A stretch of DNA of 64,000 bases from Halorhodospira halophila (lineage in GTDB: Bacteria; Pseudomonadota; Gammaproteobacteria; Nitrococcales; Halorhodospiraceae), in assembly GCF_016653405.1 (NCBI RefSeq), contig NZ_NHSN01000025.1, positions 248,001 to 312,000 of the forward strand. The letters are read 5' to 3'. A program made the position numbers and the translations under genes. Positions 14,244-54,738 of this stretch are shown in pieces (within the stretch, counting starts at the first letter, position 1; every line of letters starts with the position of its first letter). Under the pieces are notes generated by a model. It was not told where the DNA came from, ran no database searches, and was given only the letters and a program-made list of their open reading frames with translations.

Positions 14244-14277
14244 GCGCCGCCGCGGGGGCGTGCCCCCGCGGCGGCGC
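14244..14277. terminator. Strong bidirectional hairpin between sufT and the aminotransferase gene
   Basis: A perfect 16-bp stem (14244-14259 with 14262-14277), all G/C, closes on a 2-base GT core. It sits between convergent stops at 14231 and 14294. There is no U-run, but the stem is very stable. Confidence 0.6.
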
Positions 14278-23205: not shown

Positions 23206-25458
23206 TCAGACGTCGACACGCAGGCCGCGGACCTGGCGCAGCCCCCGCGGCAGCTGAACGCCACGCCGGCCCCGGGCGGCGCGGAAGGCCTCCAGGTCGT
23301 CGCGACTGAGCCGCTTGCCGGTCTTGCCGGCCTCCACCCGCAGCGCAGCGCCGGCGGGCAGCACGGCGACCGCCACCACCACCTCCTCACGGCTGCGCAG
23401 GCGCTGGGCCGGGATGCCGATGAGCTTGTTGCCCTTGCCCCGCGCCATCTCCGGGAGCTCCTCGAGGGGGAAAACCAGCAGCCGACCGTCGGAGCTGGCC
23501 ACCGCCACCTCGGCCCCATCGGCCTCGGCGGGCAACGCCACCGGCGGCAGCACCGCCGCCCCCTCCGGCAGGGTCAGCACGGCCTTGCCCGCGCGGTTGC
23601 GCGAGAAGAGCTCCCGCAGGGGGACACGGAAGCCGTAGCCGGCGTCGGAGGCGAGCAGCCAGCGCGACTCCGGGTCGCCGGCGAGCACCGACTGGAAGCG
23701 CGCCTTCTCCGGCGGCGTGAGCCGCTTGGTCAGCGGTTCACCTTGGCTGCGCGCCGACGGGAGCGTGTGAGCCGGCACCGCGTAGGCCCGGCCGGTGGAG
23801 TCGAGGAAGACCGCCGGCTGGTTGGAGCGCCCCGGGGCGTGATCCAGGTAACCGTCACCGGCTTTGTAGGACAGCCCGCTCGGATCAACCTCATGCCCCT
23901 TGGCCGCGCGCACCCAGCCCTTCTCCGAGAGGACCACGGTCACCGGCTCGCTGGGCATCAGCTCGGTCTCGTCCATGGCCCGCGCCGGGCCGCGGTAAAC
24001 CAGTGGCGAGCGCCGCTCGTCGCCGTGGGCCTCGGTGTCGCTGAGCAGCTCGCTCTTGACCTGCTCGCGCAGCCGGGCCTCATCGCCGAGGGTGGCGCGC
24101 AGCTCGTCGCGCTCGCGCTCCAGATCCCCCTGCTCACCAAGGATCTTCATCTCCTCGAGCCGCGCCAAGTGGCGCAGGCGCAGCTCGAGAATCGCCTCGG
24201 CCTGGGCATCACTAAGCCCGAAGCGCTCCATGAGCACCGGCTTGGGCTCGTCCTCCTCGCGGATGATGGCGATGACCTCATCGATGTTCAGATAGGCGGT
24301 GAGCAGGCCCTCGAGGATATGCAGCCGGTCCTCCACCTTATCCAGGCGCCAGGCCAGGCGGCGGCGGACCGTCTCGGTGCGGAAGCTCAGCCACTCCGCG
24401 AGCAGGTCGCGCAGGGAGAAGACCCGCGGCCGGCCATCGAGGCCGATGACATTGAGGTGAACCCGGTAGCCGCGCTCGAGATCGGTGGTGGCGAACAGGT
24501 GATCCATCACCCGCTCCGGATCCTGGCGCCGTGAGCGCAGCTGGACCACGATGCGCACCGGCGCATCGTGGTCCGACTCATCGCGCAGATCCTCGACCAT
24601 CGGTAGCTTGCGCGACTGGATCTGGGCCGCGATCTGCTCCATGACCTTGGCGCCGGCCACCTGGTAGGGAAGCGCGTGGATGACGATCTGCGCCTGCTCC
24701 CGCTCGTACTCCCAGCGGGCCCGGGCGCGCACGGTGCCGTGACCGCGCTCGTAGATGCCGCGCAGCTCCTCGCGCGGGGTGATCACGTCCGAGGCAGTGG
24801 GGAAATCCGGCGCCGGAACGTGCTCGCAGAGTTCAGCGGTGGTGGCCTCGGGATGGTCGAGCAGATGGACGCAGGCGGCAACCACCTCGCGCAGGTTGTG
24901 CGGGGGGATGTCCGTGGCCATCCCCACGGCGATCCCCGAACCGCCGTTGAGCAGCACGTTGGGCAGTCGCGCCGGCAGGCGCTCCGGCTCCTGAAGGGCG
25001 CCATCGAAATTGGGGATCCACTCCACCGTGCCCTGCCCCAGCTCGCTGAGCAGCACCCGGGCGTAGGGCGTCAGGCGCGCTTCGGTGTAACGCATGGCCG
25101 CGAAGGATTTCGGGTCGTCCGGCGAGCCCCAGTTGCCCTGCCCGTCGATCAGCGGGTAGCGGTAAGTGAACGGCTGGGCCATGTGGACCATGGCCTCATA
25201 GCAGGCCGCGTCTCCGTGGGGGTGGTACTTGCCCAGCACATCGCCGACGGTGCGCGCCGACTTCTTGTACTTTGCCGCCGCCGAAAGGCCGAGCTCGGAC
25301 ATGGCGTAGACGATCCGCCGCTGCACCGGCTTGAGGCCGTCGGAGACGTGGGGCAGGGCACGATCGAGGATGACGTACATCGAGTAATCGAGGTAGGCCC
25401 GCTCCGTGAACTCGCGGAGCGGCTGGGTCTCGAAATCGGAGGCAGCGGGATCGGACAT
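23206..25458 (-). CDS. parC: DNA topoisomerase IV subunit A
   Basis: 750 residues, the usual ParC length, with the catalytic tyrosine at Y124 in [13 protein letters not shown], the winged-helix CAP region and a short five-bladed C-terminal domain. ParC rather than GyrA is supported by length, by pairing with parE and by the missing GyrA-box QRRGGKG. In the quinolone region the sequence reads [12 protein letters not shown]: the position equal to E. coli Ser80 is alanine (A84), while the Glu84 equivalent is kept. No Shine-Dalgarno is evident before the ATG, and the upstream gap holds repeated TCAGG motifs. Confidence 0.93.
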
Positions 25459-51275: not shown

Positions 51276-51880
51276 GCGGGGTCAGCGTCGCCCTAACCGG
51301 GGCCTCTGGCCTGCAGTACGGTCTGCGCCTGGTGCAGACCCTCGCCGGGGCGGGCGAGACCGTCCATCTGCTGGTCTCCGATGCTGCCCGGGTGGTTGCC
51401 GGACTGGAGACGGACACCCCGCTCCCCCGGCGCAGCGCCGAGTTGCACCGCCAACTGGTCGGGGCCCTAGGCATCGATCCGGCGCGGCTCCACGTCTACA
51501 GTGATCAGCAGTGGACCGCACCCCTGGCTTCCGGCTCGGCAGCCCCGAAACGCATGGTGGTCTGCCCCTGCACCACCGGCACCCTGGCGGCGATCGCCGG
51601 CGGACACTCGGACAGCCTGATCGAGCGCGCCGCCGATGTGGTACTCAAGGAGCGCGGTCAACTGGTGGTGGTTCCGCGGGAGACCCCGCTCTCGGCGATC
51701 CACCTGGAGCATATGCTGTCCCTGACGCGGCTCGGCGTGGTGGTCCTGCCGGCCAACCCGGGGTTCTACCATCGGCCGCAGCGGGTCGAGGACCTGATCG
51801 ACTTCGTCGTGGCACGGATCCTGGACCACTTGGATGTGGCCCACGACCTGGGCCCCCGCTGGGGCAAGGAGAGCGACTGA
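51272..51880 (+). CDS. ubiX: Flavin prenyltransferase UbiX
   Basis: 202 residues. Flavodoxin-like FMN protein with VALTGASGLQYGLRL, MVVCPCTTGTLAAIAGGHSDSLIERAADVVLKE and VPRETPLSAIHLEHML. It attaches a dimethylallyl group to FMN to make the prenyl-FMN cofactor for UbiD decarboxylase in ubiquinone synthesis. It overlaps mpl by 4 bases and the next gene by 1 base. Confidence 0.94.
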   Translation: MSGVSVALTGASGLQYGLRLVQTLAGAGETVHLLVSDAARVVAGLETDTPLPRRSAELHRQLVGALGIDPARLHVYSDQQWTAPLASGSAAPKRMVVCPCTTGTLAAIAGGHSDSLIERAADVVLKERGQLVVVPRETPLSAIHLEHMLSLTRLGVVVLPANPGFYHRPQRVEDLIDFVVARILDHLDVAHDLGPRWGKESD

Positions 51881-52482
51881 TGGACGATGAGCTGCCGCTG
51901 TTCCCTCTGCGTACAGTGCTTTTCCCGGGTGGGCGACTGGAGCTGCGCATCTTCGAGCGCCGCTATCTGGATCTGGTCACCTACTGCCTGCGCAACGACA
52001 ACACCGGCTTCGGCATCTGCCTGATCGAGAATGGCGGCGAGGCGGGGCTGCCGGCCCGTCCCCACGCCGTGGGGACGGAGGTGCGCATCATCGACTGGGA
52101 CCAGCGCAGCGACGGTCTGCTGGGGATCACCGTCGAGGGACAGCGGCGCTTCGAGATCCTTGAGCGGCAGACCCCGACGGGGAAGGTGCAACAGGCGCAG
52201 GTGCGCTGGCTGACCGACCCGCCGGCGCCGCAACTGGACGCCGAGCTCCGCCCGCTGGCCGATCTGCTGGAGCGAATCCTCGATCAGATCGGCGGCCTGT
52301 ACGGGGCCATGCCCCGCCAGCTCGATGATGCCGGCTGGGTCAGCGCGCGGCTATCGGAGCTGTTGCCGATCCCCACCGAGGCGAAGCAGCAGCTGCTGGA
52401 GATCGACGCCCCGGAGGAGCGCCTGGAGCTGCTGCGCCGGGCCCTGGAGCAGGACTCGCCGCCCCGCGGCGACGCCGACTAG
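51880..52482 (+). CDS. Lon N-terminal-domain protein (stand-alone substrate-binding domain)
   Basis: 200 residues covering only the Lon substrate-binding (LAN/PUA-like) domain: LPLFPLRTVLFPGGRLELRIFERRYLDLV, FGICLIENGGE and a helical C-terminal half (LSELLPIPTEAKQQLLEIDAPEERLELLR). No ATPase or protease domain follows, as in the widespread YbgR-like group. The function is unsettled, perhaps protein binding. The ATG shares one base with the ubiX stop (TGATG). The large nested palindrome begins 9 bases after the stop. Confidence 0.9.
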   Translation: MDDELPLFPLRTVLFPGGRLELRIFERRYLDLVTYCLRNDNTGFGICLIENGGEAGLPARPHAVGTEVRIIDWDQRSDGLLGITVEGQRRFEILERQTPTGKVQQAQVRWLTDPPAPQLDAELRPLADLLERILDQIGGLYGAMPRQLDDAGWVSARLSELLPIPTEAKQQLLEIDAPEERLELLRRALEQDSPPRGDAD

Positions 52483-52491
52483 CCCCACGCA

Positions 52492-52734
52492 CCGGGCGTT
52501 GCGGTGTGCCCCCCGAGGCCGGGGCCTTTGAGCGTGCCGAGCCGCGCAGCCCCGGCGGGGGGCCAGCGCGAACCTTTCCGGTTCGCGCTGGTCAGCGAGG
52601 TTTTGTCCGAGCGGCGCGACCGCGCCGCGAGTTAAGCGAGCGGCCCCGCCGGGGCGAGCAGCGCAGGGGACCCCGCCGCCAGGCGGGGCGCGCTCATCAG
52701 GCCCCGGCCTCGGGGGGCACACCGCAACGCCCGG
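52492..52734. repeat. Large nested palindrome (multi-stem-loop intergenic element)
   Basis: A 243-base non-coding element fills the gap between two convergent genes. The outer stem is a perfect 35-bp inverted repeat (52492-52526 with 52700-52734), extended by GAGCG/CGCTC (52530-52534 with 52691-52695). Inside are a perfect 12-bp stem (52549-52560 with 52644-52655), enclosing a 12-bp hairpin CCAGCGCGAACC/GGTTCGCGCTGG (52563-52591, loop TTTCC) and an 8-bp hairpin GCGGCGCG/CGCGCCGC (52611-52628, 2-base core). A 7-bp hairpin CCCCGCC/GGCGGGG sits at 52671-52688. The result is a branched fold that could form in RNA of either strand or as a DNA cruciform. It may be a bidirectional terminator, a structured RNA or a mobile palindromic repeat; copies elsewhere cannot be seen from this window. 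Confidence 0.8.
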
Positions 52735-52743
52735 CGGGGGGGG

Positions 52744-54738
52744 TCAGCGACCAGCGTCGCCGGACAGGGCCCGGGCGGGCAAGATGCGGATCGGCTGTGC
52801 CGGCTCCAGGATGCGTAGATCCCCCGTGGTCAACAGCCGATCCACCACACGGATGCGCTCACCGGGTGTCACCGGCCGAGACTGGATCGCCGCCACCGGC
52901 CAGCCGCTCTGGATGCGCTCCACCTCCAGGCTGACCAGCCACACCGATGCCGCCTCGCCCGTGACGCTCATCGGCGCCGGCCACAGGCGCAGTACCAACC
53001 GTCGCTCCGAATCGGCCGGTATCACCCGAATCAGCGCCGGCAGACGCCCCCGGTACCAGCGCGGCAGCGGCGCCATTCGGTACAGATCCGGCTCCGGCTG
53101 CAACCAGCGCAACGCCCCGTAGAGGCGGCGCTGGGGCTCCTGCCAGCCGGCTTCATCGAGCCGGGCAACCAGTGTCTCCGGCTCCGCCAACCACTGCAGG
53201 TCCACCGCACGGCGGCCGCCGTCAAGCCAACGCAGTTCCCGTCCGAACGCGTGCGCCGGCCCCACCTCCAGCCACTCGGCAACCGTCAGCTCCGGCGGAT
53301 CGGCCTGGGCGACGAAGCGCTGGCGCTCCTCGGGGAGGATCAACGCCGCCTTCACCACCACCCCAGCCACCAGGACCAGGGCCACGATGGCCGGCAAGGT
53401 TCGCTCCGGAAGGCGCCGCTGTGAAGCCGTGCGCGCCAGCACCACCAGCCCGGCGATGACCACGCCCAGCAGCAGGCCGCCCACCGCATCCGCCAGCCAC
53501 AAATCCCCGACCACCACACCGCCGATTGCGGCCAGCAGCGGGATCCCCACCCCCACCACCTGCACCGGGCGGCGCAGCGGCCCGTAGGCCACCGTGGCCA
53601 GGACCCCTGAGGCCAGGACCAGCGTCGTGAAGCCGGCCAGCGCCGGCGACGGGAAGGCCAGCGGTGGGGCGCCGCGGTAGAGCGTGGCGGTGCTCAAGTT
53701 GCCACTGACCACCCCCAGCAGCACCGCCAACAGGGCCGCTGCAGGGACGATCAGGCCGAGCACGGCGGCCACCCGCAGGCGACCGCCCCAGGCCACCCAG
53801 GCCACCCCGGCCAGCCAGGCCGGCACCCAGGCCTGCGGCTCGAGGAGCAGGGCCGGCATGACGAAAGCCGCGCGCAGGCCGGTATCCAGTTCGCTCATCA
53901 GCACCGCCAGCAGCGCCTCGTCCACCAGCGTTGGCCCGCCCCACCACCCCTGGTACAGGGTCAGCACCATCAGGGCGAGCAGCGCCGCCCACCAGATCCA
54001 CCCGGCGCCATAACTGAATGCGCGCAGGGCGTGGCGCGGACCACTAAGCACCTGGGCGGCCACCGGATGAACCCTTCCCCAGGCCCGGGCCCGCCAGGCG
54101 ATCAGGGCCGCCGCCCGGCGCAGGCGCGGCGCGATCAGGTGGCGCGCCAGCCACCAGCCGGCCCAAACAGCGATCAGGGCGATCAGCAGCAGCGCCCCAA
54201 GGCGCAGCGACACCGATGCGGCCACGGCCAGCGAGGCGCCGAAGACCATCCCTGGCAGCAGGTAGGCCGGCGCCCAGAGCACCGCCGAGACCAGGTTCAC
54301 GAGCAGGAAGGGCCGCGGCGGCATGTTCATCATGCCGGCGATGGCCGGGATGATCCCCCGCACCGGGCCCACGAAACGTCCAAAGAAGAGGCTCTTGCCA
54401 CCGTGAGCAGCGAAGAAGGCGTCCCCCTTGGCGAGGGCACCGGGGTAGCGGCGCAGCGGCCAGTAGGTGCGCAGCCGATCGCCGAAGTGGCGACCGAGCC
54501 AATAGCTGATGGAGTCGCCGACGAAAGCCCCGGAAAAGGCGGCGACCAGACTCGGCCATAGCTCCAGATGCCCGGTGCCCACCAGGGCCCCCGCGAAGAA
54601 CAGCAGCGTGGCACCGGGGACGATCAGACCGGCCACCACCACCCCCTCGCAGAGGGCGATGAGGAAGATGACCAAGGTGGCCCAGCCCGGGTGGGCCGCC
54701 ACCCAGTCGAGCAGACCGGCGATCCAGGAGAGATCCAT
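52744..54738 (-). CDS. DedA - PAP2-like - LssY C-terminal fusion membrane protein
   Basis: 664 residues. Residues ~1-200 are a DedA/SNARE-assoc domain (IVPGATLLFFAGALVG; SYWLGRHFGD; FFGRFVGPVRGIIPAIAGMMNM). Residues ~235-455 have the helix pattern of a PAP2 phosphatase, but the catalytic motifs are altered: PSP-ALAG instead of PSGHA, and GDLWLAD where HWPSD is expected, so both histidines are missing. Residues ~470-650 are an LssY C-terminal soluble domain (AHAFGRELRWLDGG; MAPLPRWYRGRLPALIRV). DedA proteins flip undecaprenyl phosphate or other phospholipids. The poly-G run next to its stop continues into the nested palindrome. Confidence 0.82.
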   Translation of the reverse strand: MDLSWIAGLLDWVAAHPGWATLVIFLIALCEGVVVAGLIVPGATLLFFAGALVGTGHLELWPSLVAAFSGAFVGDSISYWLGRHFGDRLRTYWPLRRYPGALAKGDAFFAAHGGKSLFFGRFVGPVRGIIPAIAGMMNMPPRPFLLVNLVSAVLWAPAYLLPGMVFGASLAVAASVSLRLGALLLIALIAVWAGWWLARHLIAPRLRRAAALIAWRARAWGRVHPVAAQVLSGPRHALRAFSYGAGWIWWAALLALMVLTLYQGWWGGPTLVDEALLAVLMSELDTGLRAAFVMPALLLEPQAWVPAWLAGVAWVAWGGRLRVAAVLGLIVPAAALLAVLLGVVSGNLSTATLYRGAPPLAFPSPALAGFTTLVLASGVLATVAYGPLRRPVQVVGVGIPLLAAIGGVVVGDLWLADAVGGLLLGVVIAGLVVLARTASQRRLPERTLPAIVALVLVAGVVVKAALILPEERQRFVAQADPPELTVAEWLEVGPAHAFGRELRWLDGGRRAVDLQWLAEPETLVARLDEAGWQEPQRRLYGALRWLQPEPDLYRMAPLPRWYRGRLPALIRVIPADSERRLVLRLWPAPMSVTGEAASVWLVSLEVERIQSGWPVAAIQSRPVTPGERIRVVDRLLTTGDLRILEPAQPIRILPARALSGDAGR

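Follow-up and report, generated by a model that had tools for sequence, protein, structure and literature searches.

The nested palindrome that lies between two convergent genes of Halorhodospira halophila, within the 64,000 nucleotides that were analysed here as a whole (the window), is in our reading one member of a REP/MITE-like family of non-coding repeats that are dispersed and form nested hairpins, and in which the two outer arms of a locus are kept identical and the core enclosed by them is flipped through template switching or inter-arm recombination. We place the probability of this reading at roughly two in three.

The window element (52483-52743, assigned to no strand) takes up the whole space between the convergent stop codons, at 52480-52482 on the + strand and from 52744 on the - strand, which bears out the position given in the earlier note. 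The gene on its left (51880-52482, +) encodes a LON substrate-binding domain protein (PF02190, E 7.3e-28) and the convergent gene on its right (52744-54738, -) a VTT-domain protein (PF09335, E 2.5e-21), which we take to be DedA-like. The outer stem had been described as perfect over 35 bp: the perfect pairing stands, but the length is 36 bp, formed by the locus-specific left arm (52492-52527, +) and its complement on the right (52699-52734, +), and the arms extend imperfectly to 45 nt with 93% complementarity (52483-52527/52699-52743). By comparison, among 100 dinucleotide shuffles of this 261-nt stretch no perfect inverted repeat exceeded 18 bp (mean of the longest, 10.8), and the folding energy of the element lies below that of 200 shuffles by 14.7 sd on the + strand and 12.9 sd on the - strand. 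The four inner stems of 12, 12, 8 and 7 bp claimed for the element were all recovered in the core (52528-52695), whose parts, all read on the + strand, are arranged as follows. P1 (52530-52536 with 52689-52695, including one T-G; recognised from the sequence and the computed fold) stands beside the arms and is followed by a motif (52539-52549, GAGCCGCGCAG here and GAGCANCGCAG in most copies), the 5' side of the 12-bp P2 (52549-52560, pairing with 52644-52655; 11 of its 12 pairs are altered on both sides in some copies), the hairpins P3 (12 bp, 52563-52574 with 52580-52591) and P5 (8 bp, 52611-52618 with 52621-52628), the 3' side of P2, the motif again as a direct repeat of its first copy (52656-52666, GAGCAGCGCAG), and the small hairpin P4 (7 bp, 52671-52677 with 52682-52688, from the sequence).

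A search of the host and related genomes returned many copies of this element, with compensatory changes among them, so that the single, unvarying copy which the earlier note had taken as the mark of a locus-specific artefact or simple terminator is not what was found; the palindromic mobile repeat, which it listed beside a structured RNA, a DNA cruciform and a strong bidirectional terminator, is supported by the own-genome copies and by a copy whose orthologous site in genome G006 is empty. The own genome (G000) carries at least 19 copies of full or near-full length, two of which reach contig ends, as well as fragments, the count being a lower bound because the best 40 of 118 candidates were scored. 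Matches occur in 10 of the 40 genomes searched, the own genome included, and in 6 of 9 within the genus. A scan of named genomes with the core-motif pattern gave at least 119 stretches; the 80 loci among the matches listed bear titles that are mostly those of Beta- or Gammaproteobacteria, the remainder being one MAG each of Deltaproteobacteria and Muproteobacteria and a few named no more closely than Proteobacteria or Pseudomonadota. As called by a crude gene caller, and with orthologs counted apart so that the copies are not independent, 50 copies are distributed as 25 between convergent genes, 12 between tandem and 4 between divergent ones, 6 called inside an ORF and 3 at contig edges; the corresponding figures for the 19 own-genome copies are 10, 4, 2, 2 and 1. 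The frequent siting between convergent gene ends suggests either tolerance at such places or a candidate role at transcript ends. A RAYT transposase (PF01797-type) was considered as the present mobiliser in the own genome and rejected, no match being found there, nor in G004, G005 and G007; G006 has one match below the cut-off, and matches above it occur in the element carriers G001 and G003 and likewise in G002 and G008, where no element was found.

The arms belong for the most part to their own locus. Both flanks are available for 47 copies, and in 44 of these the outer stem reaches a score of 12 or more, with a length of 19-48 bp (median 34.5 bp) and, over all 44, only 42 mismatches in 1515 pairs; the three copies devoid of a good stem count against the explanation that we favour. 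When the arms of the 50 full copies (the partial copy L077 being left out) are paired with their own partners, the median score is 18.75 (range 0-35), versus a median of 0 and a 99th percentile of 7.8 for the 2450 combinations across different copies, whose maximum of 46 presumably comes from orthologs. Likeness among the arms of 17 own-genome copies (L019_182 and L018_148, which have no full flank, were excluded) does not rise beyond that of shuffles (z 1.8 mononucleotide, 0.9 dinucleotide). Common ancestry of these 17 arms was rejected on the lack of signal against dinucleotide shuffles. Terminal inverted repeats are shared by the two L019 copies and by 13 copies of a Rubrivivax MAG, and not by the 17 own-genome copies.

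Furthermore, the two arms of a locus change in concert. At 11 of the 12 sites compared between the own genome and G006 (L022/L076 was left out for its weak stem and for the left arm of L022, which is partly N), 60 positions have changed in both arms with pairing preserved, 13 have changed in one arm only, and 2 otherwise. Taken over 21 of 22 ortholog comparisons, the arms show 92 double, 20 single and 5 other changes, figures that come from permissive alignments of diverged arms and from species that share ancestry. The five sites compared between G000 and G004 give 6 double, 4 single and 1 other, from which it follows that single changes are not rare at short distance. At the window site itself, the aligned G000 and G004 arms differ at three positions, all altered on both sides, and in length. 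The pair L012/L070 has nearly identical arms, with no paired double change and one single change, yet its core is inverted.

Arms were also compared beyond the genus. Among the matches listed, outer stems scoring at least 20 are present in 40 of 80 testable named copies versus 20 of 600 swapped pairs, some of the MAG copies having arms in common. Three Burkholderiaceae genomes carry stems in 57 of 66 copies, with a median of 80 bp and lengths up to the 180-nt limit of the test, and 12 orthologous comparisons of their arms, in flanks 89-97% identical, give 126 double, 36 single and 5 other changes. Seven of these comparisons, made between G041 and G042, account for 53 double, 15 single and 2 other; one G041/G042 pair, with 3 single changes and zero double ones, counts against our explanation, and no inversion is seen among the 7 G041/G042 element positions (5 loci) listed, despite the long arms. 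The 13 copies of the Rubrivivax MAG have nearly one common arm sequence. Next to cores of the Xanthomonadaceae and Nevskia types no long arms were found; many copies of this kind are followed by another hairpin, and in another subfamily, comprising L103, L105, L119, L124, L142, L154 and others, a hairpin of the type TTTGGTTACTTTTCTTT..AAAGAAAAGTAAC follows in place of the long outer arms. It was also observed that the elements of the three Burkholderiaceae genomes (L281-L330) are often paired on opposite strands, a few hundred bases apart, and that many have their own long arms, which in some cases exceed 100 bp.

In the sequences compared, the core of about 165 bp is both conserved and covarying. 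The own-genome cores are 80% identical on average (153 pairs), and across 38 cores the 30 pairs of the helices P2, P3 and P5 are paired in 95.8% of cases, as against at most 44.5% in slid controls. The comparison for covariation that had been proposed for this element thus brought out compensatory changes, 17 of the 30 pairs being altered on both sides, and the 67 double-change cells compare with a shuffle mean of 14.9, none of 500 shuffles being as high; unpaired cells number 47 of 1117. Standard changes on one side only fill 19 cells. The closing pair of P2 accounts for 17 of these, and elsewhere 2 one-side cells stand against 65 double and 46 unpaired. The relationships among cores follow the genome in some cases, L009 and L013 of G000 grouping with L080 of G004 (support 100/99) and L070 with L072, both of G006 (97/87), and the locus in others, such as L026 with L055 and L010 with L083. 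The P1 variant that adjoins the arm keeps to the locus, being GGACGCGCC at L013, L080 and L086 and GAGCGCGC at L009 and L068. Since cores group by genome while the P1 variant keeps to the locus, gene conversion of the inner core would fit better than re-insertion.

Such covariation is what would be expected if the element were a structured RNA or a strong bidirectional terminator whose stems covary through selection on the RNA fold, and this reading can also call upon the placement of half of the 50 copies between convergent genes, crudely as these were called, and upon an excess of G-T over A-C among arm mismatches, read on the motif strand, in every data set (38 to 16 in G040, 16 to 6 in the gammaproteobacterial set). 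We nevertheless hold it to be unlikely. Wobble intermediates are almost absent from the core, the element turns round relative to the genes, and Rfam 15 yields no gathering-score match in the window, where only far lower-scoring ones fall in the element region, and nothing except tRNA in 7 related loci. As for a simple intrinsic terminator, no T-run stands beside the outer stem on either strand, and the sole terminator-like match is weak and internal, which speaks against it. The strand asymmetry of the arm mismatches was rejected as a sign of RNA selection: in the Burkholderiaceae arms, to which the split between arm ends and middle applies, the G-T excess is confined near the ends, and the variable middle has 24 G-T versus 21 A-C (p 0.77). 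These even middle mismatches, together with the few wobbles of the core, favour DNA-level copying over selection on RNA as the explanation of the pairing, although the core may act as an RNA. Two other wobble counts were set aside, one of 57 G-T to 16 A-C because the energy model of the consensus fold favours G-U, the other of 66 to 36 because permissive arm extension counts random matches.

The arrival of an element can be followed on contig C10 of G000 (L019, C10:1-3200), where two copies about 1 kb apart share their arms and are identical at 221 of 231 aligned bases, the second (C10:1035) having a perfect stem of 27 bp. In G006 the first copy is present and inverted and the second is absent, its place being occupied by about 24 bases between matching flanks with no hairpin over 6 bp; such presence/absence polymorphism at orthologous sites is a trait of MITEs. 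The shared arms and the empty G006 site make the copy at C10:1035 look like a recent arrival that carried arms and core together. No target-site duplication is obvious there, the flanks being too diverged from those of the empty G006 site to define one. At L015 both G000 and G004 carry an element, whose arms run past the stop codon and reach into the final three codons of the + gene. G006 has none at this site but retains a hairpin of 10 bp with a 7-nt loop; G001, G003 and G005 likewise have no element here, the best hairpins in the short stretches scanned being of 7, 3 and 3 bp. The empty G006 site may represent the ancestral state or a loss. At the L023 site G006 has an inverted element that has lost the sequence between its two motifs, and at the L024 site only a possible remnant, judged by eye, while the window site is devoid of the element in G001, G005 and G007, with best hairpins of 9, 7 and 4 bp. 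The orthologous sites of L015, L023, L024 and L069 were located through individual flank searches. Two of them hold other structures. Outside the halved element at the G006 ortholog of L023 (L227) there is another inverted repeat, perfect over 33 bp, whose own-genome counterpart is by eye only partly complementary. The G008 ortholog of L069 (L249) carries a different nested hairpin, perfect over at least 18 bp and by eye longer with a bulge, followed by a T-run and with this core absent, that is, a long-armed terminator at the same gene boundary.

These sites bear directly upon the proposal that a mobile core inserts into hairpins which already exist, the symmetry of the target accounting for the random orientation of the core and for arms that differ from locus to locus. 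The hairpin left at the empty L015 site of G006 agrees with it, and so do the REP dimers lying inside palindromes in A. variabilis and H. neapolitanus, where REP-free palindromes were not found either (PMC3733652). That hairpin may equally be a deletion scar. The young copy at C10:1035 brought its own arms to a site that in G006 offers no such hairpin, the near identity of arm sequence among the 13 Rubrivivax MAG copies counts against it, and suitable hairpins are scarce, a scan of the 64-kb window for arms of at least 14 bp and loops of at most 60 nt having revealed only two besides the element (14244-14277 and 24543-24574, perfect over 16 and 14 bp, none of 20). We regard this proposal as quite improbable. 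Empty long palindromes were considered as insertion targets and rejected, the window holding none.

Between species the core is often inverted with respect to its flanks, a feature that, like the mostly locus-specific arms, the earlier note had not anticipated. Comparison of G000 with G006 shows inversion at 8 of 13 sites (L009/L068, L010/L073, L012/L070, L011/L084, L022/L076, L016/L071, L017/L085, and L019 copy 1/L074 at 6719, the last judged by one flank because the contig ends there) and the same orientation at L014/L072, L013/L086, L020/L074, L026/L087 and L021/L075. Between G000 and G004 it is inverted at one of five sites, the window site. There the G004 contig C54 resembles the own genome by 99.5% in its left flank and 86% in its right, as if chimeric; a further G004 contig, C33 (left flank 89%), likewise has the inverted core. 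In the six pairs inspected in full, five of them inverted, the flank directions agree, and every inverted pair has the unequal loops that separate arm from P1 swapped along with the core, which places the exchange within the arms. A separate observation concerns L018 (G000:C15:1-3600), where two copies lie at the contig start and their flanks match, in opposite directions, along 1176 bases; the compared flanks lie between both copies, and the match may be the same DNA counted twice.

A core that is often inverted between inverted repeats would also be produced by a site-specific inversion switch (inverton) driven by a recombinase, an interpretation to which we grant very little probability: in the five inverted pairs the exchange points fall outside the conserved P1, within arms whose sequence varies from locus to locus, and the three proteins near the window element show no match to a recombinase family. 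Least probable of all is an artefact of assembling palindromic DNA. Several genomes are in draft form, where palindromes may be wrongly assembled, which also counts against our own reading; the own genome is in 45 contigs with some copies at contig ends, and C54 has its chimeric look. Against an artefact, the single-contig G006 has 14 stems scoring at least 12 with 12 mismatches in 496 pairs, and misassembly would not yield arms that vary from locus to locus and change jointly.

The model that we propose, template switching or recombination between the arms, would operate as follows. A new copy would arrive together with its arms, and in later rounds of replication or recombination one arm would template the other. 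Mutations would be copied across, and the arms would thereby stay identical while diverging from those of other loci. The copying from arm to arm could lengthen the arms, as the L015 arms reaching into codons and the long Burkholderiaceae arms suggest, and would sometimes turn the core round. Recombination between the arms would likewise invert the core and could convert the arms, and the data fit it and template switching alike. In addition, the inner cores of different loci would be homogenised by gene conversion.

Both dispersed intergenic palindromes and template switching are known. The literature on the latter describes how template switching between inverted repeats homogenises and lengthens arms, produces double changes in one step and inverts the spacer (PMC8604942, PMC8794818), and PMC8794818 argues from RNA data that long perfect hairpins originate in this way. 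The elements studied here resemble these quasi-palindrome cases in their homogenised arms and inverted spacer, and both signs, paired arm changes and spacer inversion (8/13 for G000/G006, 1/5 for G000/G004, 0/7 listed for G041/G042), are found in our data. The cases given in the portions of those papers at hand involve short arms, few-base spacers and single genes or rRNA, whereas ours are the loci of a whole family, with arms that run to tens of bases, in some cases to more than 100, and with spacers of about 170 bp; that these spacers are so much longer than the few-base inversions of PMC8604942 and PMC8794818 counts against the mechanism. REP elements are 20-40 bp long and carry a tag, GTAG- and CGTC-tagged REP dimers being described (PMC3733652). 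Like REPs and their dimers, as that paper presents them, our elements are dispersed intergenic palindromes found mainly between convergent or tandem genes, beside stop codons, and some REP dimers too can lie inside longer palindromes (PMC3733652). Unlike REPs, the elements have a core of about 165 bp with nested stems and arms of 19-48 bp, longer in Burkholderiaceae, the arms being mostly unique to each locus and the core inverted between species. The Beta-proteobacterial repeat element, BRE, is 75-91 bp long and often tandem (PMC3110155). It is likewise a dispersed, GC-rich, mostly intergenic repeat of Betaproteobacteria, from which our element, set beside it by description only, differs in being neither 75-91 bp long nor typically tandem (PMC3110155). 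Contigs of a MAG titled Bordetella parapertussis carry the motif of the present family (among the matches listed), and the BRE of Bordetella, likened to it by description only, may be related. Within the open-access PMC papers we found no description of this core family, nor of the combination at such scale.

Could these loci represent a widespread bacterial class of self-maintaining palindromes? In such a class a structured core would arrive with an inverted repeat that then grows outward by copying its own flank and is curbed mainly by the adjoining coding sequence, the outcome being arms that are unique to each locus, fast-changing and self-complementary, and a core whose orientation equilibrates. 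We advance this generalisation tentatively and do not consider it the probable one.

In conclusion, our observations address the puzzle of how long perfect hairpins arise and remain perfect, since paired arm change and spacer inversion occur together here at many loci, in whole genomes and with long arms. If the wider class just outlined is real, its loci would keep a natural record of template switching in wild bacteria, and the core would constitute a repeat superfamily, hitherto undescribed, of Beta- and Gammaproteobacteria. If our model is right, compensatory change in the stems of bacteria would, on its own, be no proof of a selected RNA structure, which would affect the calling of structured RNAs from covariation.
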